DNA of 64,000 nt from Protonemura montana (Eukaryota; Arthropoda; Insecta; Plecoptera; Nemouridae). The translations under genes were made by a program, and so were the position numbers. Each line of letters begins with the position of its first letter. Positions within the stretch are counted from its first letter, which is position 1. The notes beneath the pieces are model-generated. The model did not search any database and was not told where the DNA came from. It saw only the letters and a program-made list of their open reading frames with translations. The stretch covers positions 6,696,001-6,760,000 of the forward strand of contig OX387612.1 in NCBI GenBank assembly GCA_947568835.1, in the 5' to 3' direction. Positions 3,605 to 64,000 of the stretch are shown here, piece after piece.

Positions 3605-3664
3605 TCAGTCTCTATCCGTATCAATTACACTCAAACAATTAACTAACACTAACCCTAAAGTTCA

Positions 3665-4876: not shown

Positions 4877-5089
4877 TTGGCTTCAACACCGTGAAGGTCT
4901 TGATATTCCAAAGCTTGCACAGTATATTGTTAACCAGAGTTAGATATTGTCACATGACACAGTACACGAGACAAATTGATAATTTTTTCCACTTTTACTT
5001 TTCACATTCTTTCATAGCCAAATCGGAAAGTGCACGGATGAATTAGCTTAAGTCAGCAAAACAACTTTGTCTGATGGCGAAATCGTCTG

Positions 5090-5925
5090 ACTGCCCCAGT
5101 GCAACTTTTATGTGATCGATTGGGCCTGTGTCTCTACCCCAGTGCAACTTTCAAGTGTTCGACTGAGCATGTGACTCTACCCCAGTGCAACTTTCACGTG
5201 TTAGACTGGGCATGTGACTCTGTCCCAGTGCAACTTTCACGAGTTCGACTGGGCATATGACTCTGCCCCAGTGCAACTTTCACGTGTTTGACTGGGCATG
5301 TGACTCTGTCCCAGTGCAACTTCCAAGTGTTCGACTGGGCATGTGACTCTGCCCCAGTGAAACTTTCACGTGTTCGACTGGGCATGTGACTCTGTCCCAG
5401 TGCAACTTCCAAGTGTTCGACTGGGCATGTGACTCTGTCCCAGTGCAACTTTCACGTGTTCGACTGGGCATGTGACTCTGCCCCAGTGCAACTTTCACGC
5501 GTTCGACTGGGCATGTGACTCTGTCCCAGTGCAACTTTCACGTGTTCGACTGGGCATGTGACTCTGTCCCAGTGCAACTTTCACGTGTTCGACTGGGCAT
5601 GTGACTCTGCCCCAGTGCAACTTCCAAGTGTTCGACTGGGCATGTGACTCTGCCCCAGTGCAACTTTCACGTGTTCGACTGGGCATGTGACTCTGTCCCA
5701 GTGCAACTTTCACGTGTTTGACTGGGCATGTGACTCTGTCCCAGTGCAATTTTCACGTGTTCGACTGGGCATGTGACTCTACCCCAGTGCAACTTTCACG
5801 TGTTAGACTGGGCATGTGACTCTGCCCCAGTGCAACTTCCAAGTGTTCGACTGGGCATGTGACTCTACCCCAGTGCAACTTTCACGTGTTCGACTGGGCA
5901 TGTGACTCTACCCCAACGGTCACTC
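5090..5925. repeat. 43-bp minisatellite, array 2
   Basis: About 19 copies of the same 43-bp unit as at 2224-2835 and in the same orientation, directly upstream of the intact receptor gene. CACGTG is present in most units and replaced by CAAGTG in a scattered minority. 'Ctgcccc', 'ctgtccc' and 'ctacccc' variants alternate, so the array is not perfectly homogenised. Confidence 0.95.
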
Positions 5926-12100: not shown

Positions 12101-15100
12101 AAACGGAATTTTTCTCCACTATTAATTGATTGATTTGTTGCGTTTAACGATGCACTGTTTTGACAACGAACTGTGTGGCACTTGTCTTATAGTGTCGGTG
12201 AATGAGTGGTTGATGATGATGATGTTGATGAATCTTACCTAGAAGGAAGGAAGGGATACCTAGCGCTGGCACGTAGCCTACTCTTGTCGAAGAGCACCAA
12301 GAGGACCACCGGCTTAACGTCCCTTCCGAAGGACGGTACAACGCGAACAACAGGATTCCTCCAAAAGTCTATGCTGTCGAGAGGTTGATAAGCAAGGCGA
12401 ATGAAGTTGCTGTACTAACTTTCGTCCCTCAAACTCGCTCTCGAACAGAACTGCAGTCATCTGTATGATGATCACCCATCCAATACCTGACCCAGCGCAG
12501 TGTTACTTAACTTCGGTGATCTCACGAGGACCGATAGCCAACACGCCAAACCATTCGGTTTTTCCAACTACATTAAAAAAAAAAAAAAACATCTCGACGC
12601 CTGAACATAGACGACCGTTCATAAAGCGTTATGCAGGCGTCGGCGTCCTTTTTTAACGATAAACATCGTGTTTTGCATGGCGTCGGTCCAAAGCATCTGT
12701 TGCAACACCCGGCTAGCGTCGCGGTGCTGGCGTCGTTGCCTGATGCTAAATCACAGCCAACGTTGCATGGCTATGATGATTATTGCCGCAGCCTGCAGGC
12801 TAAATTTATGCGTTAATTATTTGGATTGCTATTTGGAACGTGTACATATTTGAATCTGTTTTTGCATCACTGTCAGGGTGTGGCTGTTCGTTAGTATATG
12901 TTTGTGCGGAAAATGAACTAAAGTTTGATTTTTTTTCAGCTGTGTTTAGAAAAAAGTGAGGTCTAAGAAGTAAGTTGGGTTTATATGTTTAGTCAGAGTC
13001 TCAGAGCTGATGTTTAACTCACTGCCATTGGGCTTAAATATTAAGTCAGAGTCCCAGTGCTAATATTATACGTCCTGCCACCCGATAATACTTGTTTAAC
13101 CTAGTATAATTAAACTATTATTGTTAAACTAGTAGTTATTAAACCTTTAAAATTATAGAATAAAGGCTCAAAATATCGATACGTGTTTATCAATCGCTGA
13201 GTTAAACAATACTAAAAGTTAATTGTACGCTAACGAGTCTCAAATGTGAGTAATCTGCGAGAAATAACAAAACGAAATTTCTCAACATTCGAAACAACGG
13301 TGACTCCACATGGTGGCATTTTCCACTTTTCTCGCTGTCATGTAGTCATTTTCAAAGACAGTTCTACATTTGTGCTATGGTTGTACGCCAAACACCATTC
13401 ACCTGGTCAAAAAATGTCTTGGAAACTAAAGTGACTTCTGAGAAATTCAATTGTGGTAACAGACCATGGTGCTTGCTTGTTTATTAAAGTGACATGCAGA
13501 CTAAAAAAAATCAACATAAGATCTAAGAAAAGGGCAGCGACAATTCACAAAAAAAAACTCAACAACTACTTAAACAAAAAAAAATTGTCTTTGAAAATGA
13601 GAAGCCCGTGAACTTTGTGCTCGCAGAGAGTTGATGCTCATGCCAAAATAAACATAGACAAAATTAGTCTCCCTCTTCAGAATAAGTGAAGAGAAAATTG
13701 TGTTTAAAAATAGTGAAATGGCATCAGAGCCAGACATAGTTAGGTGGTTCACGGTTATGGGTTGCACTTTAATAGAGTTTTCGACTAGCTTGCACCAAGA
13801 TGGGCTGGAAGCTCAATGTCGTCATGTTCTCAACTGGGTTTGCACCAGCTCCGAGTGAGAGCGCTCCCACCCGAACACTTGACCACTGGCTGTCAGTGCA
13901 TTCATTTATGTGAAATCTGATTTCCAATTGCACAGTTGAAATTCGCAGACAAGAAGAGTGCACCGGGAGTGACCCGAGAGCGAGCAACTCTGCCGGTCGA
14001 ACACGTGAAAGTTGCACTGGGACAGAGTCACATGCCCAGTCGAACACGTGAAAGTTGCACTGGTGCAGAGTCACATGCCCAGTCGAACACGTGAAAGTTA
14101 CACCGGGACAGAGTCACATGCCCAGTCGAACACGTGAAAGTTGCACTGGGGCAGAGTCACATGCCCAGTCGAACACGTGAAAGTTGCACTGGGACAGAGT
14201 CACATGCCCAGTCGAACACGTGAAAGTTGCACTGGGACAGAGTCACATGCCCAGTCAAACACGTGAAAGTTTTACTGGGGCTGAGGCACATGCCCAGTCG
14301 AACACGTGAAAGTTGCACTGGGGCAGAGCCACATGCCCAGCCGAACACGTGAAAGTTGCACTGGGACAGAGTAACATGCCCAGTCGAACACGTGAAAGTT
14401 GCACTGGGACAGAGTCGCATGCCCAGTCAAACACGTGAAAGTTGCACTGGGACAGAGTCGCATGCCCAGTCAAACACGTGAAAGTTGCACTGGGATAGAG
14501 TCACATGCCCAGTCGAACACCCCATTAGAGGGTTTTAGAAGTTCGGTGAGTGTGTTAGGCTAAAGAGATCAGTATTCAATATTATTATCTCATGATTAAT
14601 AGCGCAAACGTAAATACTAGGGTGTAATCAAATGTGGTAAGCGAGTGGAACTGTGCCAAAATTATGCCAGCCGACGTCACGGTATGAAAGAAATTTTAAA
14701 GTAGGTAATAAAAAACCTGGAACTTGGGAATCAAAAAAGCTGCGCATCACGGATGTTGCAACTCAGATGGATTCACTTTGCGTCTAGAAATAGAAACTAA
14801 AAGTGGAAATAAGTTTATGTGGGCGCCAGAAGTTAGTAACGTCATGAAGATGTTTTAGCTTCTTCTTGCGATTATAGTGGCACATTTATGTTATACCTTG
14901 CGTTTCTTTAAAAGTTCACGGAAGACATTTGTCATTGTTCTGTCACCGAGTTGGTATTATTGAAAAGTATCGTAAAAATGACTACCAAATGGCAACTTTA
15001 CTTATAAAAATGGAGATATTGAGATTGAGATTGAGATTGAGATGAGATTGATATCAACGATTGATATGCGTGTATCGATATTTTGAGTCGTATTTTATTT

Positions 15101-19605: not shown

Positions 19606-19841
19606 ATTCAAACGTTTACAGAGTGGGAAATAAGGGTAACTTAGGTTAAATTTTATAATAAAAATATCTACACTAAAGAATGGCGTTATTTCCATTTTTT
19701 CTGTTGCACGACACATTCAATTGTTAATAGTGTTTCCAAAGCCACGAAACTGACATGACATCCTAAAAGTGGTACAAAATTTAAACTACCCCTGGACATA
19801 TACTAAGAATCTGACCAACCGTTACCACAAGGTGCGCAGTG

Positions 19842-22800
19842 ATGGGTAATTTTCCATCAGTCATCCATGAGCCATCAGCGCATGCATTCGTAGGGGTCCG
19901 AACATCTCAAAGATCCGTACCTACTTCAAGACCCAACCACAAGATCGCTCCACGAGCACGAAAGCGTCCGCCGAGTGTAAGGAGTACAGCAAAAAGATCG
20001 ATAGAAACTCAAGGACAAACATCTCAAAAGGTAAGAAAACCACTGAACCTGTCCAATAATCCGTCCATGAAAATCGAGACACTTTTCACCGCTAGCACGA
20101 CGGGAGAGGCAAATACGTTTTCCGATAACTGTAAACCTTTAAAGGAAAGAAAAACGACATACAAACGTACAAAGCATGACGACCGTAAATATATCACGAA
20201 AGAGAGAGGACAAAGTAAAGCTAAGGTGCGTCTTCAAACCTTATTTACAGCAGAGCCAAAGCCCATCAGAGAACAGCCAACAAAAGCAACAGAAGATAAT
20301 AACAGTTTATATGTAATCGATGGTGAACTCACGGATAAGTTTCGGAGGGCGATGCGGAATGATGCAAAAATGTTGGGAAAGCTTTTAGGAGACCAGACCA
20401 TTCCTCTACGACTAAACCACGCGATAGGATTCGCTGATTGCGTCTTGGCAGCATTAAAAATGGCCGCGTACGAGACAGATATTGAAGAAATTCGACCGGA
20501 AATTAGAAATGAGCCCAAAGGAAAGGGTTTGAATATGTCAAAGAAGTCATCAGCATCTACAGTGGCGGAAATTGCTGGGTCTTTGGAAAAGGTTTTAGTA
20601 GATTGTAGCATCAAGGTGAAACCAGAAAGTGATTCTTTTGAATCGGACACTGCGGACCATTTTGGTGAGAAGGTTCGACCGCAGTGTTTGCAAATCCATC
20701 GGTGCTTTGAAAACGAACGGTTTTTGGAATCTGTTTCGAGTATTGGGGAACAGTGCGAAAGCGTGTACGATGAAAGCTGTGAAAAGGTAGTTTGTGATGA
20801 AACACACGTCAAACGCGAAGACGGTGATGTCGATAATTTAAGTTTTAGTTGGGAGAGCGAGGAAGAAGCAAAAGGAGAAGAGGAAGAACTGTTAAAACTT
20901 AGGAAAGAACTGGAAGAAATAGAAGTATCTCAAGAGCAAGAATTGAATTCAGCTTTGATGGAAATTAAATCAGGAGGCCACACAATTTTACCAGAGGCCA
21001 AATCGGCAGCTCAATCTAATATTAAAAACGAATTTAGTGATTCAGCCAATCTGGTGATAGAAGATGGCGGATCACTAGCGAATAATGAGTTGCACGCAAT
21101 AACAGTGACAGAAACCAAAATGCCGACCTTGAATTTTGCTGTCGTCAGCAAAAACTCGTGGCTGACACCTGAACACATCGCCATTGAGCCAATATCTTTG
21201 GGTTCAAATGACGCTGACAATCATTCGATTCAACTAAAACAGGTTTGTAAAACCCCTAAGAGTGAGTCTAAGAAAAGAATCAAGCTGCCGTCGAAGTCTT
21301 CAAACAAAAAGTTCGTACCAAAGTTTAGAAGTAGATGGATTAGATATTATTTGCGACAACCTAAAGCATCAATCGCCAACTTTAAAGAGATTGTTGATGC
21401 TCCGCCCCAGCCATTTTTAACTAGTAGTGGACCAAGTAAGAAAGAGTCAAATTCACCCCAGGATATGTCAAAATTGAGTTCCGAAAGTTTAGCAGTGTCA
21501 AAAGTTGAGACAGCAAAGAAAATTGTTACAAAGCAAGGAGAGTCTTCTGTTTGTGGTCATACCGAAACTTTTAGAGAAGCAATCAATGGCAGTAACGACC
21601 CAAAGATAGTGAATTCAAAGCTAAAAAGCAAGGAACCAGAAGTTAATATGCATGCGTCCACCATTGGAACTTTCATAGTAAGCAAGTCTTTTGAAGAAGC
21701 AGTTAAAATTGAGAGCCTCGTCAAGAAATCGACGGAAAAAATTATTAAAAAGCAAAAACAAGAAGATGCAAGACTAAAAGTGACCACGGCGATCCAAAAT
21801 AATGGGAGTGACATCAGAGAGCCTTCTTGCCATCAAAATGAACCTTTTCCAAACAATAAACAGACTGACAATAAACAAAAAACCAAAAAATCAAATCAAA
21901 GAACCAAACCAAAAACCACTGGGCCACAAACGAAGAAAAAATGCGTCACAGAGACTGAAAGCACTCGTCAGCCGGATGACACAGAAAAAGAGTGTCAAAA
22001 AAAACCTGGAAACTGTAATCCAGTTGAAAAAGTTCAATCAAGCACAACTTATACGGTGACCGACAAGAAATTGTTACCATTACTTGAAAGAACCCAAAGA
22101 AAATGGCTGGAAAATCTGCGAAGACGCAAGGAAAGCTTGCGAATACGACAAAGGCTGGCAGCAGCAGAAATCGAAAGATCACGTATCAAACAAATGTGCA
22201 TCGACGGCCCTTCACTTCATCGGACACGGCCAATTGTGAGTAACGTCAGTGCCGTTGAACAAATTGTCAGAAAAATCGACTACCTAGAAGCCGTGAACTA
22301 CTTTGCCAAACGATCAACAGATAGCAACCTAACCTATTCGAATGTTTTCGACAGAAGCGTGAATGATTTAGGGCCGATACGGATCGAAATAGTTGATCGA
22401 GCACAACAGTTACCTTTTCAGACCAATCGTTCGTTCGGATTTGTTGGGCAGCCAGCGAATAATTGTTTTAGATTCACAGCACGAGATGAAGGAATGCAGA
22501 TTGAGAGAAACAGTCCATCCATCTGGATGAAAGACTTTGTGTATGAAAACACGGAAGGGGAGGCATTTGTGCCGAGGAATGTATCGAGAAACATAATGGG
22601 AAGGCGATTGGAGGTGAAAAGACTCTCAAAGCAGTATTGTAGGCCAAAAATGGAATTTAAAGATATCGGTGAAGCGATTTTGCGACAGAAGAAAGGCAAA
22701 ACAAAGGCAAAGTTAAAACGTGAAGTAATGAAAGAAGCAAAGAAATTATCGCAAAATTCAGAAGTGGTAACCGATGAAGATGATGTTGGCAATACTTTTG

Positions 22801-23441
22801 AATCGACTGGAGAGAGTTTTAGTCACAAGATACCGAAGATGAAACACCGTAATAACTTTTTTGGTATCACTGAGATAAAAGAAGCAAAATCGTTTATTAA
22901 ACTAAAAAATTCAACGCCTCTGGCAATTGGAGAATGTGCTAAGGAATGTCTCTCTAGATTGACCTTCGACTGCGTGGACTCTGATAATGTAATATCTGAA
23001 ACAGACGCCGAGAGCAAAAGGGATACCGATGTTGATTGGCTGCCGAGTACGGTGTCTTCTGAAAGTGGGTCTCAAGAACTTTTGGTCACCTTTAGGAAAG
23101 ATAACTTGGCGCCGACTTCTTCGGGTAGTAACATTTCGGTGTCCACGTTCTGGACAGACTACAGGAAATCAAATAATTGTTATGTACCACGAGCAAATGA
23201 GTCTGTTGAGGAGAGTAATGCCGTGGAGGAATGTTCTGAATCCGAATGTCATGTGGATGACGATGAAGATGTGTTCATAGAAGGTGAGACAACTGATCAA
23301 GAAATGCGTACGGCTGAAACAAGCGATCGAGATGTAATTGAACCGGAAATTCAAAATAAAAAAGGAAAGTCGCGTTTTTTCACAAAATTGATTAACTTTG
23401 GACGGAAGAAAAGTTTGCGTAAAAGCGGGAATAAATTTTAG
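19842..23441 (+). CDS. Unknown 1199-aa charged protein, intronless
   Basis: I do not recognise this protein. The first ATG (19842) follows an in-frame stop (TGA at 19812-19814). It gives an N-terminus MGNFPSV, which fits an N-myristoylation signal (Gly2, Ser6). The sequence is hydrophilic and rich in Lys, Glu and Ser, with no membrane segment. Visible parts are a repeated 'TLFTA' motif at about residues 81 and 133, an acidic helical stretch at about 332-376 (EEEELLKLRKELEEIEVSQE), and a basic helical stretch at about 740-785 (ERTQRKWLENLRRRKESLRI). An acidic region precedes the last 60 residues, and the tail is basic (KSRFFTKLINFGRKKSLRKS). A 3.6-kb intact frame in AT-rich DNA is very unlikely by chance, so it is probably a real, fast-evolving or lineage-restricted gene. 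A first non-coding exon is possible. Confidence 0.75.
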   Translation: MGNFPSVIHEPSAHAFVGVRTSQRSVPTSRPNHKIAPRARKRPPSVRSTAKRSIETQGQTSQKVRKPLNLSNNPSMKIETLFTASTTGEANTFSDNCKPLKERKTTYKRTKHDDRKYITKERGQSKAKVRLQTLFTAEPKPIREQPTKATEDNNSLYVIDGELTDKFRRAMRNDAKMLGKLLGDQTIPLRLNHAIGFADCVLAALKMAAYETDIEEIRPEIRNEPKGKGLNMSKKSSASTVAEIAGSLEKVLVDCSIKVKPESDSFESDTADHFGEKVRPQCLQIHRCFENERFLESVSSIGEQCESVYDESCEKVVCDETHVKREDGDVDNLSFSWESEEEAKGEEEELLKLRKELEEIEVSQEQELNSALMEIKSGGHTILPEAKSAAQSNIKNEFSDSANLVIEDGGSLANNELHAITVTETKMPTLNFAVVSKNSWLTPEHIAIEPISLGSNDADNHSIQLKQVCKTPKSESKKRIKLPSKSSNKKFVPKFRSRWIRYYLRQPKASIANFKEIVDAPPQPFLTSSGPSKKESNSPQDMSKLSSESLAVSKVETAKKIVTKQGESSVCGHTETFREAINGSNDPKIVNSKLKSKEPEVNMHASTIGTFIVSKSFEEAVKIESLVKKSTEKIIKKQKQEDARLKVTTAIQNNGSDIREPSCHQNEPFPNNKQTDNKQKTKKSNQRTKPKTTGPQTKKKCVTETESTRQPDDTEKECQKKPGNCNPVEKVQSSTTYTVTDKKLLPLLERTQRKWLENLRRRKESLRIRQRLAAAEIERSRIKQMCIDGPSLHRTRPIVSNVSAVEQIVRKIDYLEAVNYFAKRSTDSNLTYSNVFDRSVNDLGPIRIEIVDRAQQLPFQTNRSFGFVGQPANNCFRFTARDEGMQIERNSPSIWMKDFVYENTEGEAFVPRNVSRNIMGRRLEVKRLSKQYCRPKMEFKDIGEAILRQKKGKTKAKLKREVMKEAKKLSQNSEVVTDEDDVGNTFESTGESFSHKIPKMKHRNNFFGITEIKEAKSFIKLKNSTPLAIGECAKECLSRLTFDCVDSDNVISETDAESKRDTDVDWLPSTVSSESGSQELLVTFRKDNLAPTSSGSNISVSTFWTDYRKSNNCYVPRANESVEESNAVEECSESECHVDDDEDVFIEGETTDQEMRTAETSDRDVIEPEIQNKKGKSRFFTKLINFGRKKSLRKSGNKF

Positions 23442-28228: not shown

Positions 28229-28688
28229 GGTCACCTATCTAATACCTGACTCAGCTCAGTGTTGCTTAACTTCGCTGATATTACGAGGACTGGTGTTTAC
28301 AACACGCCAAACCGTTCGGTGGTCACTCATCCAATAGCTGACCCAGCGCAGTGTTGCTTAACTTCGGTGATCTCACGAGGACCGGTGTTTACAACACGCC
28401 AAACCGTTCGGTGGTCACCCATCGAATACCTGACCTAGCGCAGTGTTGCTTAACTTCGGTGATCTCACGAGGACCGGTGTTTACAACACGCCAAACCGTT
28501 CGATGGTCACTCATCCAATAGCTGACCCAGCGCAGTGTTGCTTAACTTCGGTGATCTCACGAAGACCAGTGTTTACAACACGCCAAACCGTTCGGTGGTC
28601 ATCCATCCAATAGCTGATCCTGCGCAGTGTTGCTTAACTTCGGTGATCTCACGAAGACCGATGTTTCAATCACACCAAACCGTTCTCG
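28229..28688 (-). repeat. Tandem array of five 92-bp 5S rRNA-like units
   Basis: Unit starts at 28229, 28321, 28413, 28505 and 28597, an exact 92-bp period. Read on the minus strand, each unit has AACACCGGTCCTCGTGAGAT, GAAGTTAAGCAACACTGCGC and ATTGGATGGGTGACC. These are the first three quarters of 5S rRNA including the internal A-box, intermediate element and C-box. The last fifth of 5S is absent, so these are not functional 5S genes. They equal the head of the 5S-SINE, repeated without its body. Confidence 0.9.
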
Positions 28689-29731: not shown

Positions 29732-31801
29732 TCATTTCTTCGTTTCACTCTGACCTATCACTCTGGCTTCTTCGAACAACGGCGAGGAGGAGAACACCCG
29801 CGTGGCTACTGAGTGCTCAGACACGGGTACGAAGCAATGCAGTTTTTGCGTGCCGGGAATTGGCCGGGATGACGCAAATCGTGTGGCTAGCAGCTGTTCT
29901 GTGTCTTGGTGCTCCTCAATAGTTCCGAATGTGAAGTTGATGGTCGGGATGGCTTCGACCGCCCAATCGAAGAGTTGCCGGGGTGTTATTATTTGCGACT
30001 CGTAGGGGCGCTGAAGACTCGCCCGCGCTGCCAGCCGCTTGACCGTCCCTCCGACGCCGTCGCAGGCGCTCTTCCCATGTGACGTCGCCGTGAAATGCCA
30101 CTCCACGTCGGCCCCAAAGTCTCTTTGATAGTGGCACAAGTTGGCAAAATTTTTCCTATTTTTATATTGCGAGGCTGCCCCATCAGAAAAAAAGAACATC
30201 TTCTTTATGGTCTGAAATTTATTGTGCAAAAAGCTCACGAGTTTTTTTATGAATAGATGCACTGCGACAGTGTTGTGGATCAAACTCTCGGAAATTACAA
30301 CAAAGCTGATGTGGCGCTCTTCCCCGCCCTCTTTGTAATATGCCACGAAGGGGTGGATGGTGGCGGACGCATTGTTCCAGTGGAACCCCTGGGCCTCGTC
30401 TTGTAGCACGAACGCATAGTTTTCGGCAAAATCACAGATCACCAAAAACTCGCCGGGCAGGAGACCGCACTTGATGTCCGATTGGTGCGAAGATTGTTTT
30501 TTAGCAATAAAAGAGTGGCGGCACAGAGCAACTAATTTTGCACAAAAACTGTCCACGAATTCCTCGGATGAATCGATGTGCGTTTGCAGGGTGCATCGGT
30601 CGGTGCTCTCCCACTGCTTGTAGATAACATTGTCCACCATTTCGTCGTCCAGCAGTTGCGTGAGGCGCTCCTTTAACGGCTCGATGCCCGGGCACTCCTC
30701 ACACTCGCCTAGATGGCATTCGGGGAGGGGACTGTCGCAGACCAACTGCTCAAGGCAGTCGTGGTAAGATGTTATCGGATAAGATTGGTCCACTGTCAAC
30801 TTCGTCAAGTCGGCACCGATGATCATTAGCTTGACGTTTTGGTGGATAGTGCACACGCACACCGAATGAGTCCCACTGGCACCAGGCAACACACAGTTCT
30901 TCGGCCGCAGCTCTGCAAATTTTGAAAATCCTATTTTTTTATTAGGAAATTTGTCCTTGAATTGGGTATGGAGGTCCTTAAGGTTTGAGAGTACGAGCCT
31001 TTTCTGGATGTGCACTCGAGTGCCGCTCGCCTCCTTGACGGAAACATAGTCTTTCTTGCCCGGCATGGCTCGGCTCACATCGTCTGAATTGTAAAAAGAT
31101 TTTACTCGGTCAACTGTGGCTCGGTCAATTGTTTTTCCTGGCTTTGGATTCGGGGTTGACAAAATTCCCTTTTCCAGGACGAGCTTCTTTGCCTTGCGGA
31201 CCATGCGCTCTGACGCTTGAAACTCTGCCACTGTTCGCCGGACAGAGCAGCTCTTCGGGAGGACAGTTAGAACATGCACTTTCTCGCTGTTGGATGTGGA
31301 CGAGTGAAACTTCTCTTTCAGCTGATTAATCATTTCGCGACCATCAGCTGAATCTTGGCCACTGTCGCTTTCAGCGTCGGAGGTAGTGGTTCTTTTAAGC
31401 GCACCTTCGAGTTTCTTCAATTTCTTCCTGGGATAACTGGATTGCGCCAACTTTTTCTTAACAATGGGCGATTGCCCTAGCTCCGCCAAGCCCACGTTGA
31501 TGTTAGACAAAGCAGCGTCTTGTCGGAAAAAATATGCTTGACTCTCGGCGTTTGCACCACTGCAGCCGGGCTGCGAGTTGTCGCCATCGCTGGAGGTCGT
31601 CGTCGTCACTGGAGAGTCGCTGCTGATTGGTTTTACGTAGTTATTTAAATCTTTCCTACATTTGGCACAGATTTTGCTTCCTACTGGAATCGAGGAAATC
31701 TTTTCAATCATCCACGGCTGGACGTTGAGGAGAGACTTCAGCTGTGTGTGGGAAACGTGTTTAAAAGGATTGCAGCACTTCGCTCGAGTAAACGAGTCCA
31801 T
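29732..31801 (-). CDS. Transposase (DDE-type, superfamily unassigned)
   Basis: 689 aa from the ATG at 31799-31801. The N-terminus has a cysteine cluster (C9, C10, then CAKC at 45-48) that could bind zinc. A middle cysteine-rich stretch reads CHLGECEECPG. Downstream are three conserved-looking acidic motifs, CDFAENY (about residue 457), FSDGAASQYKN (about 540) and CDGVGGTVKR (about 580). They are spaced as in a DDE/D catalytic core and flanked by TATSHGKSA. The protein is known to me only as a type of uncharacterised arthropod protein with transposase features. Position inside matching inverted repeats with a target duplication makes the role near certain, though the catalytic residues are inferred. 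Confidence 0.82.
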   Translation of the reverse strand: MDSFTRAKCCNPFKHVSHTQLKSLLNVQPWMIEKISSIPVGSKICAKCRKDLNNYVKPISSDSPVTTTTSSDGDNSQPGCSGANAESQAYFFRQDAALSNINVGLAELGQSPIVKKKLAQSSYPRKKLKKLEGALKRTTTSDAESDSGQDSADGREMINQLKEKFHSSTSNSEKVHVLTVLPKSCSVRRTVAEFQASERMVRKAKKLVLEKGILSTPNPKPGKTIDRATVDRVKSFYNSDDVSRAMPGKKDYVSVKEASGTRVHIQKRLVLSNLKDLHTQFKDKFPNKKIGFSKFAELRPKNCVLPGASGTHSVCVCTIHQNVKLMIIGADLTKLTVDQSYPITSYHDCLEQLVCDSPLPECHLGECEECPGIEPLKERLTQLLDDEMVDNVIYKQWESTDRCTLQTHIDSSEEFVDSFCAKLVALCRHSFIAKKQSSHQSDIKCGLLPGEFLVICDFAENYAFVLQDEAQGFHWNNASATIHPFVAYYKEGGEERHISFVVISESLIHNTVAVHLFIKKLVSFLHNKFQTIKKMFFFSDGAASQYKNRKNFANLCHYQRDFGADVEWHFTATSHGKSACDGVGGTVKRLAARASLQRPYESQIITPRQLFDWAVEAIPTINFTFGTIEEHQDTEQLLATRFASSRPIPGTQKLHCFVPVSEHSVATRVFSSSPLFEEARVIGQSETKK

Positions 31802-32399
31802 GATTAAATTACATAAAATATACAAAACTAAACGCTGTGATTATAACTATTAAATAAACTAGCTATTACTATACTATTGCTATTAATTAAAAATATGTTC
31901 ACAAGACACTTCCAACGGTATTATTAACACCCCTCAATTCACGACGCACAAAAATAATGCAAAGAAAACTTCGAATCACTCGTCTACTTGCACTGAGCTA
32001 AGTGTTTTGCGACTGACCAAGAAACCAATGCAGAAACAACTGAATTCGCTGTCTCACGGCTAAACTTCCGGCCATAAGGGTTGAAAAGAGAAACAGGTAG
32101 CAAGGGCTGCACGTGTTCGTGGTGGGATTCTTTAAATAGAAGTAGGTAAAATATGAATTTCGTCAGATCCGTGGTCATAATGCACGGCAGAAACACAGAC
32201 CTAGTATCGTGACCAGAGCCACATATTATCATGTTTATAGCACAAAGCCCAAAAATATCACATCCTTATAATAAAATTTTAATTGCTCGACTCCATCCCA
32301 AATTCAAATCTTTTCAAGCTTTATTTATGCTATGACAAACTTAGCATAATCGAATGCTTCTGAATTCAATTTGGTTCATGCTCAACAAACTATTTAGCA

Positions 32400-32901: not shown

Positions 32902-32984
32902 AACCAATAAACCAGGCTCAACATTATCAACAATTCACTATTGCACTGAAGTGCTTTTCTCAAGACGACCAATTCTAAGATCAA

Positions 32985-33183
32985 TAAGTGTTCAGCGTGT
33001 TGGTAACACCCGTTCTCGTGAGATAATCGAAGTTAAGCAACACTGCGCTGGGTCAGGTATTGGATGGGTGACCATTATACAAATGGCCAGTTCTGTTCGC
33101 GAGAGAGGTTAGAGGGATGAAAGTTAGTACAGCAACTTCACTCGCCTTGCTTATCAACCTCTCGACAGCATGGATCTGTGGAC
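32985..33183 (+). mobile_element. 5S-SINE, 3'-truncated
   Basis: Plus-strand copy: 5S-like head with 'gaagttaagcaacactgcgc' and 'attggatgggtgacc', then the body to 'gacagcatggatctgtgga', where it stops abruptly. Confidence 0.8.
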
Positions 33184-43489: not shown

Positions 43490-44195
43490 GTCGTTTAATT
43501 TAATTTAGTTTCAACTCGCAGATTACTCGCATTCGAGACTGGTTTGCTCTCAATTTATCTGTATTTCTGTTTTATTTGTGGTGTTTAACGACGCACTGTT
43601 TTGACATCTGGCCATGCGGCACTGATCTAATGACGTCGGTGAATGAGTAGATGATGATGAGGACGATGATGAACCTAACCTAGATAAGAAGGGAGGAGGG
43701 GAAACCCGGTTCCGGCATGTACCCTACTCCTGTCAAAGAGCACCAAGGGGACCATCGGCTTAACGTACCTTCTGAAGGACCGTACAACGCGAACAACAGG
43801 ATTCCTCCACAAATCCATGCTGTCGAGAGGTTGATAAGCAAGGGGAGTGAAGTTGCTGTACTAACTTTCATCCCTCTAACCTCTCTCCCGAAAAGAACTG
43901 GTCATGTGTATGACGGTCACCCATCCAATACCTGACTCAGCGCAGTGTTGCTTAACCTCGGTGATCTAACGAGAACCGGTGTTTCCAACGCTGCACACCG
44001 TTCGGTCTTTATTTCTGCTAACTTCAACGATTGATAACTATTTTAAGTCGTTATTATTTAATTGTAGATGTTTGTTAAAAAAGAACGGCCGCAAGCGCCA
44101 TCGGGTATCATCATCCGTAACCACGATATTGCTCAGCAGAAAGTTAAATATTAACGCTGACCCTCTCACTGTACCTGTAAACTCAGTGGTTAGGT
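43490..44195 (+). repeat. Rep-B copy split by a 5S-SINE
   Basis: The left part (43490-43569) has 'ctcgcagattactcgcattcg'. The right part (44010-44195) has 'cttcaacgattgataactat', 'gaacggccgcaagcgccatc' and 'attgctcagcagaaagttaa'. The intervening 440 bp are a SINE flanked by TATTTCTG repeats. Confidence 0.75.
43570..44009 (-). mobile_element. 5S-SINE, full length, with target duplication
   Basis: 440-bp minus-strand element bounded by TATTTCTG at 43562-43569 and 44010-44017, a clean 8-bp target duplication inside Rep-B. From the right end it reads a 5S-like head starting near the first base of 5S ('cgttggaaacaccggttctc', 'atcaccgaggttaagcaaca', 'attggatgggtgacc'), then the shared body and a CAT-rich stretch. 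It finishes with 'gtgcgtcgttaaacaccaca' and a short tail. It is the best reference copy in the window. Confidence 0.9.
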
Positions 44196-54690: not shown

Positions 54691-55147
54691 CTACGTCACT
54701 CCAATCACCGGCCTCGAGTCTTTGTCCGGCTTCGCGCACTGCCCTGTCAACTGGTTCACGCTCAACGGATTGTTCACGTCGTGTGGATTCGTGCCGACAG
54801 GGTTCCGATGTGGCATCGGATGCGGCAGCGGCCCGATCGGTGGCTTGCACTCGTAGTCGATGTGGGGGGTTAGGGGACTCTGCAGACTCATGCACGGGCT
54901 GGCTAGACTGACGGAGGGACTAGCTAGTGAGGTGGACGGGGACGGGAGGATCATCGACGGACTCGTTAGACTCGAGAGGCCGCTGAGACCGCCGGGAGAC
55001 GAGATCGAACGGTGCAGGGACTCTGTATCGTCGTCCGGTGGAGTGTGAGCATCGCCGACGGAGCCGCAGCTGCCGAGGTTGTCGTCAGATTGGTTGCCGT
55101 CGACGCTGTCGCCTGCCTCCATGTAGCGAATGCACTTCTTTTTACGT
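54691..55147 (-). CDS. TCF last exon, C-clamp end and C-terminal tail
   Basis: Acceptor CTTCCAG above 55147. It begins in phase with the C-clamp exon and gives [14 protein letters not shown], completing the C-clamp. A Ser/Pro-rich tail follows ([20 protein letters not shown]), then the conserved stretch [20 protein letters not shown], as in Drosophila pangolin. Stop TAG at 54691-54693. Confidence 0.93.
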
Positions 55148-58100
55148 CTGGAAGGGAGATGTTGGTTAATGTTGTTGTAGAGATTCAGTTTTTGGCAAGT
55201 GAACTCGAGGTAAATCGTCTTTTCGAGGTGCATTAAAAAAGTTAGTGCTTTGAAATATTAACCAACCGAGGACTTATAACTACAAAGCGCACCAGCTTGA
55301 TTTGTGGAACATTTTTATAAGAAAGCTGTAAAGAAAAACTATTGCTGATCAAGCAAAACTTTCAGAGGTTGATTTGTAGATATTTACATATTTTTTTTAG
55401 TTGAGCCACTTATGTTTGAAATACCTCAAAAGCTCAGAGAGAGCTAAAGCCGGCTCACAGTAATCGACTAAAAGGATCCAACTGTGAAACTGCGTTTGTT
55501 ACTTCTGTCCCCAACTCTTTTAATTCATTTTTTAACTGGTCGCTACATTTTTATACTCTCGAATAGACCGATTTGATTCGAAACAGACTTGACCGGCAAT
55601 TTGTTACAATAAAATAACACAGAAGTATAAAAACCATGCAATGCACAGCACAAGCCAATTAATTTTAAAATAATCTGTAAGCAAATAAACCGGCTAACGG
55701 CTAAAATGCTTGACGCGTGCACACATTCACTCAACACTCATCCTGAAATTGCCGGATGGCAGACAGAAAATAATACCTGGAACTGAATAGATTAGGTTAC
55801 TATCAATTCTTCTCACACAAATGATAAATGAAGTTTTAGATTCAAGTCGTATAGGAAAATCAATTAAACAATATTAACTGAATCCTTTGCACTAAAAAAG
55901 TTGGCTTAATAGTTGGTACATGCAAGGAGGGCAAAAACTGCAAACTGCTAAAAAAAGAAATAAAAAATTCTAATAACTAAAAACATGTTCACAAGTAAAC
56001 ACATAGTTGTCACGGAAATAAAACAAAACGATTAGATAAGTAAACATGGAAATACAAAAAGTAAACGGAATAAGAACAGCAATCCAAGCTCTCCCTCTGT
56101 GAGTAGAAAACAAAAAACATTTAAAACACACTATTTCCTACTTTGGGCGGTGGCTTATGTACTAGGAGGTAGGTTCTAGGGTGCTTGTTCGAGTTGGGAA
56201 ATAGTCTGGGTTGGGAATGAGTAAACAGCCGCAAAAAGCGTAAAATCTGGTTGCTATTTTTCTACTACTACCATGCTTTGTGAGACGTAAATATTCCGAA
56301 AAACGTCGGTATTGTCGATTTTTACGGAGTCCTCCCAGCTAAGAAAGACACTAACTGAATGCTGATTAGTCAAACTTAGATCGATAGTTGTCATAAATAG
56401 AAAAAACGTCTCTGATATTTTAAAACAACGCACGTGGAAGAAGAATTATATTAACTCCTGCTGTAGAATTGATAGGTTTTCCAGTGTAAATACTTCCAAC
56501 ACATTTCTGTGGTACATACAGCGTTATCGAATTCCGTTTCCTTAAATCAATCTGTAAATCTAATAAAACCGATCAAAATTGATACAGAATATTAAAAAAC
56601 ACTATCAAATAAAAACTCTTCCAATAAAAAAGAATCTCACGAACGTTAAGTTGACGTTGATATAAATGGGAGAGAGCTACAATCTATTTGGCAGTACCTT
56701 AATGCTAAGCAGTAACGAAAATAGTATATCTAAACGGAAACCGTAGATTCCATAAAACCAACTTAAGGGTAACGAAAGAATGCCCTTCCAGGCTGACAAA
56801 TTTCCACCGCGGTCATGAAATTGCAACATCAAACATGCAAATTTAACGGAAATGCTAAACTAGAACAAACAACACTGTACGGACAGGTGAAAAACCACCA
56901 AGAACGTCTCTCTAACAGCGAGGAGAAAAAACTTCTCTTTCAAAGCTGACGGTAGCGACAACTTTACGTCTTGCGGTTCCAAGAATACAAAACCGAGCAT
57001 GCTAATTTTACAGTAATGTCGATTTCGACAAAGATGGAAAAAATGTCTAAAAGGGTCAGCAAAAAACACCAAAGTCTTTCAAAGCTGGGGGAGAGCGACA
57101 ACTTCGTATCTCGCGGTCACGAAAATGCAACACCGAGCATGCAGGTCGCGAGCTCGAGTCGCGACCACTCACAATGCGGCTCGTCGACGTCGGAAATTGA
57201 CTAGAGGTTAACATAGGTGGGCTCTTGAGGGGAAGCCACGTTGGTGGTAGAGTTGGAAGCGTGGATAATGCTAGCGTGGAGACCGACGGTCCCCCCCGCG
57301 CCGGGGCCCCCTCCCTGCGGAGGGCCCCCCAGGGGGTGGACGCCTGGCCCACCGACGCCCTCCGGGCTAGATAGAACACAGTATCGTTAGACCGTGGGAC
57401 ACCTTCGTCAGGGCTGGCGGGATCGCCGGGATTACGACATGTACACGCTTGCGCTACGGTGATGTTCGGTGTTGAATGAGATGGTTTTCCGTTCATCTTG
57501 TTGGAGAAAATCAGCACGTTTTTCTCGTCTTTTATTTTTGTTTTCTAGCACTGAATTTGTTTTTTTGTATCTTGACAGAAAATTTGCTAGCTGTTTTTAT
57601 TTATGTATAAATATATAAAAATATATATTTTTTTTTTGGATTTACAAAGGGTTATTAGGCTAGTTATATCAATGAGTAAAATCAGAAACACCAATAATTA
57701 AAAATACTTTGAACTACATGAAATTGAGTGATATTCAGAATTAAAACCTGTACACCAAATCCTATTTCGTCTTTTTTTCACTAAAATCCTATTGACATAT
57801 ATAAAAAAAATTAAGGATAAATCCACGGAACAACTATAGGAAAAGAATTTGTTATCGATTTTTTTTCGTATGAGAAGGCAATTCAGAAAATGTGTCTAGC
57901 GCAAAGAGAATCGACCTGGGTCTGGCGATTGCGAGATGAATTTCTTTCCAGCGACAGAGAAAGTGCCCCAAATTTAACGATACTGTGTGCTAAACGGCCG
58001 GGCATCGCTACTTTACGGAAGTCACATACCAGAAAAAAGACTCACTACCGACACAAAACTTAATCCTCTCTGTGGGAAGACACATTTTCTGAACGCGGAA

Positions 58101-61100
58101 ACGGGAGAGAACATCGAGTGTGCGTGCGAACAACAGTCCGAGAAACGATATGCCATCGGCAACAATCTGAATCTCGTACCGGTTCGTTACGTCAAAACAG
58201 AAACTACGTAAGGCCATTTCGCCTCCGAATCGACGGCTTGTGTAAAGAAACAGAAATTTAAGAGAGAAAAAAACAAACTAATATCTAATCACAGTCTTTC
58301 CACATTACCGAGAAAATATAAACATCCATGAAACTTGACGAGTGAGACTTTTTGATATGTTACTCCATAGTAAAGAAAGCGGTCGTGGAAAAGGTCACTC
58401 GGATAGTAAAAGGAAGATCGTAACATCTTTGGCTGATATTAATTAACTCACGTATAAAGCATCCTTCGACAATATTTATTTCATTTCCACGAGTTAAGCT
58501 AGCGTCAAGGAAATTCATCGAGCTAAGGTTCACAAAATGTAACATGATCTTATTTCCTATTATGAATTCGGCAATCTATCATTGAATCTCGTTTGCTTGA
58601 AAGTTATGTTCGTTTATAAAGTTGGCAAAGAAAACTTAGAATTATTGGCACTATCAAACCTCAAAATTTGGATGTAAGATTGTTGGAAAGAAATTGAAAT
58701 TGTTCCAAAAAAATATGATATTTTCTTAAAATTAAAAAATGGTTCGAGTGTTTAAAACTATTGAGGAATACGCTGAAGTTGATATGTACTTACTTAACGC
58801 AAAGACCATGCATTTAAATTAACTATTTCTCGAACAGGTAAATTGTGCTCTACTGTTAATTAGTACTCGCTAGAAAACTATAGCTTTTTCAGGAAAAGGA
58901 TTACCAACGATAATGGCCAACACACTAACTTCTAGCAATATTCACTCATAAGAGCTAAAAGGCAAGAAGACTGCATGTTGGCCATTTTTGTTGGCAATTT
59001 TAACCTCAAAAATACTGTATCAGTGCCAACTAAACTATGAGTAAACTAGCTGGCATGCCGTAAGCCCATCGGTAAGCTTAGAATTTTATCTAATCGTGTT
59101 CCACAAATCATTAATAAACAAAACTAAGATTTGAGTGACCTTTTCAACGTTGGGACGGACTGCGGATTTCCGCACGGAAATCAAACGATTCTTGCACACT
59201 TACACAGACAGACAAACAGACAAACAAAACAAACGGTTTATTTTGGTTATCTCACCTGCAAGGTTTGCACCACTGACTCTGTTGGTCCAGTCCGTAACGA
59301 GCTCTGCACTTCTTCATGCTGTTGCCTGTGGAATTGACAATCGAGGATAAGATTTTGACCACAATATAACGGATAAATGAATTACTAACTAACGGCAACA
59401 CGGATTTAATTTCAGGACAAACTACGTTTCATTACAATCCAAGTTTTTGTTAAATGTACGATCTTATGGGGATTTTAGATGTTACCTTCTATTGGACAGA
59501 ATACTTTATGAATTTGATAATTTTTTATCTGAATAAGTGAACATACCTAATTTCAGAGTGAAATTGTAAAATAATATTAATATTTTTATGTTTTCTATTC
59601 AATCAATGACAATTCAACTTAACAAACTGAATATCTAACATAATCCAAAAATAACAAGATATGAGGCAGTAATACAACTTTCTTCAATTCAAAACTAGTT
59701 TAACTGTACTCTATTTTGTATTGAGAAGGTTGTAGAACCGCCACTAATTCAGATAAAAGTGAGAGGAGGACCAATGTGCCAAAATTTACGCCAAGTTTTT
59801 TTAGCGAGGTGAATGATTTTTGTTGGTAAAAAGACATGAATAATGTTTTTTTTTTGTTGGCAAAAACGAGCAAATAATAAACTGCAAAAACATGCAAAAT
59901 CGAATAAAAATATCTCACTACAATGCTCTTCATAATGAGTAAACACTTTTCGTGTATTCATACAATTTTGTTGTGTAAAAGACAGAATGACGTATGCACA
60001 TCGCTAATATAAGCAATGAGTTTTGGAGCAGGCTGTTTAGAAAGATGTAACTATTTTAAGTTCTCTGAGGCCACACACTGTTAAGCCTGGTGATAAAAAA
60101 TATTTGAAATATTTAACTGTTATCAACTGCGACAAAAAAGGAGGGCAGTTCAATTGATTATTTCATCAGAATGGAACTATAACCAGAAGTAGTTTCCCCC
60201 CAGAAAACAATTCCACTCCAAACACAACCTACGATCACAAAAAAGTCCACAACATTTTAACAACATTGAGGTTATTTAGTAATTTTAAAATAAAGTGAGG
60301 TTATCGTCTGGTCGGACCGCATCGAGAAATTGAGGGAGGGACAATGTACCTCCGTCGTTTGTGTCCTGTTTGCGCTTCCTCTTCTTTCCGCGGGTCGTGT
60401 TAGCCCTGCTTGACCAGTCAGGATAGAGCTGCATGTGCAACTGGCGCTCCCTTCGAGCCAACTCATAATACTTTGCTTGTTCCTCCCGGCCTAGGGCGTG
60501 CCACTACAACAAAGTAAACACAAAATTAACTTTCCAAAAAAAAAATGTAAAAGATGAAACGGTAGCGTTAAATTTTGAAGGTTATCCTCTCTGAATTTCC
60601 GTGTAGTATTCGTATTACGTTTGTGCTAGAATAACAGCCAGGATGAAATAACTAATCGGTCAAACGGTTTAAATTTCTTTAAGGAAACGGCACGCCTAGT
60701 TCACCGGTGATAGCGGAATAGCAGTATATTCGTTTTTAATCTTTATTTCCGAACCCATCCCCAATTTTGCTTCCTAGAAACAAAATCCTTCAGTAGAAGA
60801 GCGAGCGCAAATGAATGCAGAACTCGAAAACTGTTTTTTCCCTACCTATGTCGTTACGGTGACAACTGCTTTAGATTTTCCAGACGTCATTTTGCCGCGA
60901 GGGCACGAGATCAGTAACAATCGACAACTGCGTGAGAGTGATTAGAAAACATGAAGTCTACAAAGTCATTTACTCTGGAAAAATGGCAATGTTAAAAACC
61001 GGCAGCAAAGCTAAACAAAACAAAAATCCATCAAACTTTTTTTTGATCTGCTTGGCAGGCAAAAATAAGTAGCAATTTTGCTGGATTTCTATTTTCATGC

Positions 61101-64000
61101 GCTAAGCCGTTCATTCGGTTTCAAAACCAATTACATAACTGAAATAAACGTTGTAAAAATTAAAAATTCCAGACAAATTTTCTACATGCCTACACAATTT
61201 AACTTCAACGAATCACATCACAAATCGCAATTTAAACTCCGCAGCCGATCGTTACTCATCTCGAGCCTTTAGTCCCAGCCCCACTCCCGTTCCGACGGAT
61301 CGATTTCACGCGAGCGCAATTTTGGCACATTTCCTCTGCTCTCATCTTCCACCTAAACTGCTGTTGTTCTAGCACTACTGGAAATACGAGCTCAGGAAAT
61401 AGACGAGGGATACCTCCCGAAGTGTCGCTACTTGTCGAACGCTCTTTCTTCCGTTTCTTCTTTTTGGCGCCGTAACCGTAATTGTCTCTCGCACTCCAGC
61501 CGGGGTAAAGTTGTAGGTGGAGTTGGCGCTCTTGTCTCGCCTTCTCGTAATACTTAGCTTGTTCTTCTCTCGTTAGAGAGTGCCACTGGGGAAGCATCGA
61601 TTTTGTTACGCGACAGGGACATGGTATTTTGAAACAGTAGCAATATGTGAATAGTACTTACTGTCGACTCTATGATAGGTACAAAACTACTGTGAACAGT
61701 GAATCTCAAATGAAATATTTCCTTGAAAGTGTTAGTTGGGTAACATGCAGTTGAAAACCAAATCAATGACACTTATTGATGAAAATTTTGAATGATTTTG
61801 CTACAATAACTATGTATTCTTTTGCCAGATCTTTTTTTGTGGAGAAACAAGACTATAGACATGTTTTACAGTAAACAAATGGAAGATCACATATATTAAA
61901 CATAAACAAATTTTCTTTTTGCAGTGTGTTGATTTCAGTTTCAGCTAGAATCAAAATAGAGAGATTTGTACTTTGAAAATACCTACTAAATTTAATTACA
62001 GGCTTGAACACTGTCAAGAAGTGCTGAACAAGATAGGCTAGTAGTAGGACTGTGACCTTATTTCAAATTGTCAAATTTTTGTCGAGTAGCTACCAAAAGA
62101 AATTATTCAATTTGTAAGACAATTACTTCCCTTCACTCCATAAGCGACTTGTGAACTGATTGTTAACCTTGCTAGATTTTATCTTATTCTTGCCATTAAT
62201 TATTCTTATTCTAATTTTTATTAAAAGTTGTCATTGGTTAGCTTAAATTATTCTTAGTTTATAACTTACTGCTGACTGCACAGAGGCCAATGGATGCTAA
62301 GTACCAGAATTTGTCTACAAAAACTAGTCTCAAAGCCCTCTGACATTGCATAAATGCAAGTCCAGCTCTCGGAAAGACTGCTTCGCTAGTTGATTAGATT
62401 GACAAGCGCAACGTTACTTACCCTTCTGCCCAGTATTTGGTTGATTGCGGCGCTCTCCTTCAGCGTGCACTCTGCCACAACCTTCGCCCGCATCTCCTTC
62501 ATGTAGAGCATGAAGGCGTTGAGCGGTTTCTTGATGTGTGGCTTCTTCTTGTCTGAAAACCGGAGAATCGAGATCAGTAAATTAGCAAGCGCTGCATTTG
62601 GTATTAGGATTAAAATAAATTAGGCTTAAGTTGCAAATTGACAGTGAAATTTTCCTTTTTCAACCACGTTAAGAGAACAAGGGGATTGAAGCAAACCATC
62701 AACGTTCTTGAGTAACACAAATCTATGATGATTGTTGATTAAAACACTCTGCTTATTATTGGCATAAGTTATTTAATGACTGGATATGTTTATGATGATT
62801 TTTAGACTCATGTCTACTTGATTTATCCTTAGCACTAGTTGTAAGAAAAACTATTTGAAATGGGTTTTGAATGCTAAGTAAAGGGCTACTAAATTTTCCT
62901 TTGATTTTGTATTTTGAATATGTATTTATCAAAAAGAAGTTCTGGAAAAATAAGTTCGGGTACGTAACGCGATCGCTAAACGCCATCTTTATATTGGTTC
63001 CCACCATAAGAAAATAATTCTCAGTCAAGTTATCTAAAGAAATTAGATTGAATCTCATTCAAGAGTTCATTACCTTGTGTAAGTTACTCGGTATATCGAA
63101 TAAATAAGTTCTACTCACCTTGGTTGTTTGCTGCGCTCTGGTCTTGGTTCTTAGAGTTGTCTGAATTACCCGAATTCTTCTGGTCTAGCGATGATTGCCT
63201 GCAAAACAGAAAAACAAATATTTAATTCCAAAGTAAAAGCAGCCAAATGTTATTATTAAACAATCTGAACTTATTATGCATTATAACAACCCAACAAAAG
63301 CTGTAAAATCACAGCAAGTACATGCACGACATTCGAGGACGTTTACCTCTTCCTACTACGCTTGCTCTTAGCAGGCGTTATGGTCTTTAAATCCCCGGCA
63401 ACCGAAATGGGTTTCAGCGATAAATCATTGGGTTTATCCGCGTCAAGCTGGATATCGGCCTCCGTTCCCTGGCGCAAGTTGTTCTTCAATTCTGTCGACC
63501 CGTTTTGCCACGAATTCCCGAGCTCGTAGAGCCTCCTCTGCGTGTCGGCGTACGACAGAAGGTTGCTGAGGACGGGAGCGGTGTTTTGGGTGGGGTCAGC
63601 CATGCCCAGGCCAGGCGCGAAGCCAGGCGAGTATGGAGACGTTGTTGTCGCGCTCGGAGCCATCAGGCTGTTCATGTACAGAGCGGCAAGGAACTGCTGC
63701 TCGCACGCGGCCAAGCTGTTGATCATGGAGTAAAGACCGTCGGGTCGAAGGGGGTCGTAGATTTTTGGCGAGCACTTCATGTTGTTGAATGTTTCTGGCT
63801 TGGGTTCTGTTTCAGGCCGGTCTTGATGCTTCCCTGGCTTTTTAGATGGCTTCAGGTTGTTGAATAGTTCGGATGACTTGTGTTCGGTGAAGGTTTTCGT
63901 TTCGTTGAAGTATTTGTTGCGTTCCGAGTTGAGATATTCGGCTAGTTTCGACGGCTCCGAAGTGTTTTTGGTTTCGGTCGATGACAAGTCGTTGGTTTTG
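54691..64000 (-). CDS. TCF/pangolin Wnt transcription factor, 3' part
   Basis: Nuclear effector of Wnt/Wingless signalling that binds DNA through an HMG box and a C-clamp and recruits beta-catenin/Armadillo through its N-terminus (outside the window). Coding exons: from the window edge to 63347, 63119-63198, 62422-62552, then either 61414-61585 or 60350-60503, then 59256-59325, and 54691-55147. An alternative last exon lies at 57201-57366. Exon phases agree throughout. The visible product is at least 514 aa with the 60.4-kb exon or 520 with the 61.5-kb exon. Family marks are [20 protein letters not shown] and ILGRR, then [20 protein letters not shown], then [19 protein letters not shown] and [12 protein letters not shown], and finally NPLSVNQLT near the C-terminus. 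The 5' end is cut by the window. Confidence 0.95.
55148..57200. other. TCF intron sequence
   Basis: AT-rich, with nothing recognised. Confidence 0.4.
57201..57366 (-). CDS. Possible alternative last exon of TCF
   Basis: A GC-rich island in AT-rich intron. An acceptor-like 'tgtgttctatctag' precedes 57366. The first base completes the codon left open by the C-clamp exon, and the frame then runs 54 further residues ([20 protein letters not shown], then [20 protein letters not shown]) to TAG at 57201-57203. Length 166 bp. Splicing here would give a product of at least 417 visible residues that lacks [12 protein letters not shown], the second half of the C-clamp. Support is acceptor, phase, composition and frame. 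No transcript evidence is available. Confidence 0.55.
57367..59255. other. TCF intron sequence
   Basis: Nothing recognised. A frame on the minus strand continuing above 57366 (to 57517) is open but out of phase with the exon proposed at 57201-57366. Confidence 0.4.
59256..59325 (-). CDS. TCF C-clamp exon
   Basis: 70-bp exon with acceptor CCACAG above 59325 and donor AG/GTGAGAT. It encodes [20 protein letters not shown] then PC, which is three of the four zinc-binding cysteines of the C-clamp. The fourth (KKKC) comes from 54691-55147. Confidence 0.95.
59326..60349. other. TCF intron sequence
   Basis: Nothing recognised. Confidence 0.4.
60350..60503 (-). CDS. TCF HMG exon B (Drosophila-like)
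   Basis: 154-bp exon with acceptor TTGTTGTAG and donor GGAG/GTACAT. It encodes [20 protein letters not shown], then [20 protein letters not shown] and [11 protein letters not shown], close to the corresponding part of Drosophila pangolin. It supplies the third HMG helix and the basic tail. Confidence 0.94.
60504..61413. other. Intron between the two HMG exons
   Basis: 910 bp, with nothing recognised. Competing-site or branch-point elements were not resolved. Confidence 0.4.
61414..61585 (-). CDS. TCF HMG exon A (vertebrate-like)
   Basis: 172-bp exon with acceptor TTCCCCAG and donor GGAG/GTATCC. It encodes [20 protein letters not shown], then [20 protein letters not shown] and [26 protein letters not shown] is the form found in vertebrate TCF/LEF proteins. 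It has the same start and end phase as exon B. If unspliced, the frame would run on to a stop at 61256. Confidence 0.92.
61586..62421. other. TCF intron sequence
   Basis: Nothing recognised. Confidence 0.4.
62422..62552 (-). CDS. TCF HMG exon, first half
   Basis: 131-bp exon with acceptor TTTTCAG and donor GTAAGT. It encodes [20 protein letters not shown], then [20 protein letters not shown] and LGRR, i.e. HMG helices 1 and 2. It ends on a whole codon. Confidence 0.96.
62553..63118. other. TCF intron with a Rep-A arm
   Basis: 62800-62900 is a Rep-A copy ('tttagactcatgtctacttg', 'cttagcactagttgtaagaa', 'ttttgaatgctaagtaaagg'). The remainder is unassigned. Confidence 0.55.
63119..63198 (-). 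CDS. TCF linker exon
   Basis: 80-bp exon with acceptor TTTTGCAG and donor GTGAGT. It encodes a polar linker, [20 protein letters not shown] then SAANNQ, just before the HMG box. Confidence 0.9.
63347..64000 (-). CDS. TCF central exon (cut by the window edge)
   Basis: Open from the window edge to the donor AG/GTAAAC at 63346. It encodes the region between the beta-catenin-binding N-terminus and the HMG box, with [38 protein letters not shown] and a basic end [11 protein letters not shown]. Its 5' boundary lies beyond the window. Confidence 0.88.

Follow-up and report, generated by a model that had tools for sequence, protein, structure and literature searches.

The final part of a 64,000-nucleotide stretch of the Protonemura montana (Plecoptera, Nemouridae) genome (contig OX387612.1, positions 6,696,001 to 6,760,000; the whole stretch is referred to below as the window) contains the 3′ portion of a minus-strand gene that is, by its TCF-type HMG box and its C-clamp, a TCF/LEF (pangolin) transcription factor. 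The gene continues past position 64000, and its beta-catenin-binding end lies beyond the window. Two exons, here named A and B, follow the exon encoding the first half of the HMG box (HMG-N exon) and precede the exons of the C-clamp (Table 1). Judged by their translations and borders, A and B are an adjacent homologous pair, sharing the same phase and encoding the same segment of the protein. The explanation favoured here, to which we assign a probability of about 0.82, is that one exon was duplicated in tandem, that A and B are spliced singly, that the reading frame enforces the choice, and that the two products would differ in their choice of Wnt enhancers.

Table 1. Features of the TCF/pangolin locus of P. 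montana, in window positions; a slash marks the exon–intron border.
Feature	Positions	Strand	Remarks
Upstream exon of TCF/pangolin	63119..63198	-	start point for residue counts
HMG-N exon: first half of HMG box (ends INQILGRR)	62422..62552	-	frame, Pfam, donor AGG/GTAAGT, U2 donor score 6.1
Exon A: late half of HMG box, with WSARDNYG, then basic tail KKKKRKK	61414..61585	-	donor GAG/GTATCCCT
Possible 3′ extension of exon A upon donor skipping	61256..61413	-	52 open codons (including the junction codon), then stop; weak
Candidate pairing arm 1 (partner 59786-59755)	61318..61349	-	local helix scan, 7/200 shuffles equal
A–B intron, 910 nucleotides	60504..61413	-	
Exon B: late half of HMG box, then basic tail KKRKRK	60350..60503	-	donor GAG/GTACAT, weak U2-type
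Candidate pairing arm 2 (partner 61349-61318)	59755..59786	-	local helix scan
Acceptor region of the C-clamp exon, U12-like branch-site match ATCCTCGAT	59326..59350	-	branch A to exon 15 nucleotides; approximate matrix
Common downstream exon, first part of C-clamp	59256..59325	-	translation
Last coding exon located: remainder of C-clamp and C-terminus, including stop codon TAG	54691..55147	-	translation

Exon A, 172 nucleotides long (1 modulo 3), has the borders CAG/TGGCAC and CGGGAG/GTATCC, and exon B, 154 nucleotides long (also 1 modulo 3), the borders TAG/TGGCAC and ACGGAG/GTACAT. Both are entered in phase 0 after the HMG-N exon, and the phases of the two are identical. The introns measure 836 nucleotides from HMG-N to A, 910 from A to B, and 1024 from B to the C-clamp exon. 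The exon coordinates, phases, and splice dinucleotides given in the initial annotation of this DNA were all reproduced exactly. The four exon combinations were joined by script, with residues counted from the exon at 63198. With A as the only one of the pair, the frame runs on to the last stop codon and gives 302 residues, and with B as the only one it does so with 296; when A and B are joined, a stop occurs 13 residues past the end of A, and when neither is included, a stop occurs 3 residues into the C-clamp exon. A product that combines HMG box and C-clamp is therefore encoded only when one exon of the pair is present without the other. The earlier claim that including both or neither breaks the frame before the C-clamp was thus borne out by in-silico joining. 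The stronger form of that claim, that exactly one exon must be used, stands for the protein with HMG box and C-clamp; it does not stand for splicing as such, because a message that joins A to B retains the complete HMG-A domain and its basic tail, and one in which A's donor is read through encodes the complete HMG box and basic tail with 52 extra open codons, both of them ending without the C-clamp.

These two messages bear on an alternative that we regard as improbable, namely that A is also spliced to B, or its donor read through, so that a TCF with HMG-A but no C-clamp is produced deliberately, as in vertebrate LEF1 or the X7 form of Platynereis. The joined message would carry the full HMG-A and tail before its 13 residues and stop, and in the Tcf gene of Platynereis a C-clamp-less form arises via retention of the intron that follows the HMG exon (PMC5996498). 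The read-through of A remains open for 52 codons in a region (61254-61413) with a GC content of 0.506, against 0.365 in the remaining intron; with a threshold of 53 codons, equal openness is seen in 225 of 5000 shuffles and at 5.4% of intron positions. This openness is borderline, being expected by chance about 5% of the time; for comparison, read-through of B has 21 open codons, and at 27.7% of intron positions the frame stays open for 22 codons or longer. Moreover, the stop in the joined message precedes two exon junctions and should trigger decay, and a U12-type donor at A, discussed below, would disfavour joining of A to B. The read-through of A as a C-clamp-less terminus is, on this reading of the frames, only a lead.

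The identity of both exons was examined by comparison with Pfam and with solved structures. Joined to the HMG-N exon, B gives a full match to Pfam HMG_box (1.1e-22), and so does A (3.1e-22). Taken alone, B scores 25.9 bits, above the curated cut-off of 25.4, and A 24.2 bits, slightly under it. Translation and Pfam thus agree with the initial annotation in that A and B each encode the late half of the HMG box followed by a basic tail. The top solved structure for the B form is LEF1 (2lef, 1.4e-43). Over the 72 residues of the HMG box, A is identical to LEF1 at 65 and B at 66, and both forms differ from the 2lef chain at positions 19, 24, 44, and 57. The likeness to LEF1 is a mosaic, with WSARDNYG found in A and with YYELAR and LHMQLYP found in B. 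The description of A as vertebrate-like and of B as Drosophila-like consequently survives for the tails only; it fails for the exons as a whole, as B is the LEF1-like one just before the tail and the totals are nearly equal. Downstream of the HMG box, the C-clamp motifs CRARF/Y and RKKCIRY (named as in PMC9303524) are present in the translation. At E 0.1, neither the last coding exon (55147-54691) nor a 162-codon open frame (57056-57544, minus strand) matched Pfam; the latter lies in the intron that separates the C-clamp exons and might be an alternative terminal exon or a product of chance.

A and B are related well beyond what composition would give: the BLOSUM62 score of their comparison is 164, while 2000 shuffles averaged -9 (standard deviation 10) and never exceeded 39. 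The HMG part, made up of the first 33 codons, has 26 of 33 residues identical; the seven that differ are, in the order A/B, S/A, T/G, K/L, Q/R, L/M, G/D, and A/S. At the nucleotide level, identity at codon positions 1, 2, and 3 is 23, 27, and 15 of 33, respectively (positions 1 and 2 versus 3, Fisher p 0.004). In a frame test, 25 of 32 residues were identical in frame 0, compared with 11 and 10 in the other two frames. The NG86 method gave a nonsynonymous divergence (dN) of 0.22 and a synonymous divergence (dS) that was not estimable (returned as -1 and read as saturated). Outside the exons, the likeness ends. The 100-base-pair flanks of A and B share 27 identical bases upstream and 33 downstream, which is about chance level, and comparison of intron with intron yielded common words of 11 nucleotides only (E 0.31), a pairing of the A–B intron with itself being discarded. 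A third copy of the exon was not found by tblastn in the 64-kb window, where the three other matches were at chance level (E 0.72, 3.7, and 7.1). Both exons look old and under selection, and the simplest reading of these comparisons would be an old exon duplication of which both copies still encode an HMG half.

Since the flanks and introns are unrelated, the duplication is taken to be an old one and not a duplicate introduced by the assembly. The idea that haplotypes or paralogous loci were placed side by side has next to no probability: although duplicated sequence does occur in the window, where a tandem duplication of recent date has a spacing of 2.86 kb, the duplication considered here is limited to the exon, and its divergence is far too large for alleles. 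There is also little chance that either A or B is a decaying remnant, no longer spliced in P. montana. Such a view could draw on the donors of A and B, both of which are weak as U2 sites. However, both exons have open frames, GT/AG sites, and full Pfam HMG matches once joined, and a long-dead copy would not have kept its residues in the HMG part while third positions agree so much less often.

How the choice between A and B could be made was approached through the splice sites, with approximate versions of a U2 matrix, a U12 matrix, and a U12 consensus. Under the U2 matrix, A's donor scores -0.2 and B's 0.4, and the remaining four donors 2.5, 6.1, 7.5, and 8.3. The acceptors are on a par under this matrix (1.35 for A and 1.26 for B), for which reason no default exon is claimed; the acceptor of B had been expected to be the better one. 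The donor of A, GTATCCCT, matches the U12 consensus GTATCCTT at 7 of 8 positions; the remaining five donors match it at 2 to 5. According to the U12 matrix, four of the 3874 GTs on the minus strand, A's donor included, and none of the 3718 on the plus strand score at least as high as this donor, and by a plain consensus count 27 of the 7594 GTs of the window attain 7 of 8. Two further GTATCCCT sites, at 23026 and 12259 (both minus strand), are the sole other GTATCCNT matches in the window. On the acceptor side, the C-clamp exon has the top U12 branch-site match of the six acceptors, one that 85 of the 3585 minus-strand AGs equal, and the acceptor of B is unremarkable in this respect, with 2094 of the 3585 as good. 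It follows from these scores at most that the intron from A to the C-clamp could be a minor-spliceosome intron, and that a difference in spliceosome type may prevent A from being joined to B, a suggestion made post hoc from one genome.

Two other ways of keeping exons apart were considered. Steric exclusion, with the criterion of less than 50 nucleotides between donor and branch point, was ruled out, as the A–B intron is 910 nucleotides long and a branch point near its acceptor would sit hundreds of bases from A's donor. In human clusters of mutually exclusive exons (MXE), 60% have exons not divisible by three, 9% show potential steric exclusion, and 0.79% are of the U2/U12 kind (PMC5740500). 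Pairing between introns was the other possibility. A local helix scan of the A–B and B–C-clamp introns gave as its best helix 61349-61318 with 59786-59755, which would loop out B and has a score of -27.1 (approximate stacking energies). Helices as strong were found in 7 of 200 shuffles for this pair of introns, in 24 of 200 for the HMG-N–A and A–B introns, where pairing would loop out A, and in 150 of 200 for the outer introns, these being three pairs without correction.

The products of the two messages would differ in the late part of the HMG box and in what follows it. The span from WSxR to CRARY counts 30 residues for A and 24 for B, so that six residues separate the two forms between HMG box and C-clamp. 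The tails encoded by the exons have 8 basic residues in A and 7 in B, and 6 serines or threonines in A versus 3 in B. The linker from the basic tail to KKCRAR, counted manually, comprises 14 residues in the A form and 10 in the B form. As the helix limits are usually drawn, both products have helix 1 and the greater part of helix 2 in common. It is proposed from these differences that the A/B switch would mostly alter site geometry, bending, and affinity and would leave unchanged the core specificity, to which the common first half of the HMG box contributes. Archbold et al. gave a linker of 10 residues for Drosophila TCF/Pan and postulated that it sets the preferred spacing of HMG and Helper sites (PMC4154663). 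This value would agree with the fly experiments having been done with the B form.

Taken together, the favoured explanation runs as follows. The exon for the late HMG half and basic tail would have been duplicated in tandem to give the copies A and B, one or the other of which would be spliced singly between the HMG-N exon and the C-clamp exons. The frame would enforce the choice for a protein with a C-clamp, and messages with A and B or with neither would probably be destroyed by nonsense-mediated decay. As a lead, the U12-like donor of A together with an acceptor of B that lacks a U12 branch site would perhaps block joining of A to B and favour joining of A to the C-clamp exon. The isoforms most likely differ in the Wnt enhancers that they bind well and in DNA bending rather than in core HMG specificity.

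Several points weigh against this explanation or its parts. The U12 interpretation was arrived at post hoc with approximate matrices, A's donor departs from the U12 consensus at +7, and the acceptor of the C-clamp exon would need to serve A as a U12 site and B as a U2 site. The pairing between introns is weak. Folding of whole introns as duplexes did no better than shuffles in two pairs, where 57 of 60 and 12 of 21 shuffles were as strong; the third pair was compared with one shuffle only, which was weaker than the observed duplex. The four-residue difference in the linker may matter little, because the binding of HMG and Helper sites is remarkably flexible, with Helper sites being of help in any orientation, and because linkers range from 5 to 40 residues across animals (PMC4154663). 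Finally, the maternal and zygotic pan variants of Anopheles are said to have nearly identical reading frames, and an HMG switch is unmentioned in the available part of that article (PMC6783274).

The pair was next set beside known systems. The Tcf gene of Platynereis dumerilii is likewise a protostome gene with two alternative HMG exons, each joined to the same C-clamp exon; there, however, the alternative exons encode the start of the HMG domain, whereas here they encode its second half and the basic tail (PMC5996498). In vertebrate TCF7 and TCF7L2, as in P. montana, the DNA-binding region is varied by alternative exons, including the two C-clamp exons of TCF7L2 (XII/XII'), but mutually exclusive HMG exons are not described there in the available part of PMC9303524. 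According to the same source, A and B each have the content of the fused exon X-XI of hemichordates and echinoderms (PMC9303524). The locus shares with MXE clusters in general the adjacent homologous exons of the same phase, the broken frame upon joint inclusion, and, with the U2/U12-incompatible ones among them, a U12-like donor on one of the exons (PMC5740500). Examples of MXE include 14-3-3zeta, Mhc, and Dscam1 (PMC11802352). The A/B pair differs from them in being predicted from sequence and in having a candidate pairing between introns in the place of a conserved docking/selector RNA structure.

Among arthropods, two shrimp isoforms, LvPangolin1 and 2, were reported by another work (cited in PMC8365339). 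Mutually exclusive HMG exons in arthropod pangolin are unnamed in the titles and abstract beginnings among the matches listed, which is no proof of their absence from print. The A/B pair is also not described in the available parts of PMC3896468, PMC4999783, PMC6783274, PMC9303524, PMC8365339, PMC5996498, PMC3916239, PMC4154663, PMC5393890, PMC3766229, PMC5740500, and PMC11802352. When the joined B-form protein from HMG box to C-clamp was compared with viral and non-eukaryote genome contigs, 5 and 16 pattern matches, respectively, and no relatives were obtained. The UniProt entries for Drosophila pangolin (isoforms A/H/I/S and isoform J) probably include proteins with an A-like and proteins with a B-like tail. 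If they do, the 10-residue linker of TCF/Pan would belong to the B-like form, and the pair would presumably be orthologous and old, with no lineage novelty, already annotated though little discussed, and the suggestion made in the initial annotation that Drosophila may have lost one of the alternatives would be wrong. The pair looks like an old exon pair of a familiar kind rather than a novel sort of system, and there is a fair chance that databases already contain it.

Vertebrates diversify TCF output by four genes and many C-terminal isoforms, and most invertebrates have a single TCF, which is usually treated as a single DNA-binding unit. With an exchangeable HMG half, one gene would have two binding modes, of which work with one cDNA would describe only one. 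If it is true that exon A depends on the minor spliceosome, Wnt output would be tied to minor-spliceosome machinery. A broader proposal, which we think rather unlikely as a whole, can be built on this. It assumes an old arthropod-wide switch in which A is a U12 exon and B a major-spliceosome exon, so that spliceosome type would enforce exclusivity and couple the choice of Wnt targets to minor-spliceosome activity; the changed late HMG box, tail, and C-clamp tether would provide two binding grammars, and read-through of A might add a third form that lacks the C-clamp.

Several other features of the window were noted. The tandem duplication with 2.86 kb spacing mentioned above lies at 751-5235 and comprises two minus-strand copies of a chemoreceptor-like gene, which are 98 and 96% alike over the two 300-nucleotide stretches compared. 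One copy (3665-4882) is open for 405 codons and matches Pfam 7tm_7 (5.2e-33), which by itself would point to an insect, and the other is split by a stop at 1489-1491. Arrays of a 43-base-pair tandem repeat occur at 2107-2965, from 4962 to about 6000, and at 13864-14594; the first two adjoin the chemoreceptor copies, and the third is a separate family with the same unit length. Matches resembling 5S ribosomal RNA, of 42-46 bits, are found at 28370-28503 and 43887-44005 on the minus strand and at 32984-33098 on the plus strand, and the match near 44 kb falls on a dispersed repeat that has a copy near 49 kb. This overlap suggests 5S-derived short interspersed nuclear elements. Long open frames are present at 19815-23441 (plus strand, 1208 codons) and at 29732-31840 (minus strand, 702 codons).
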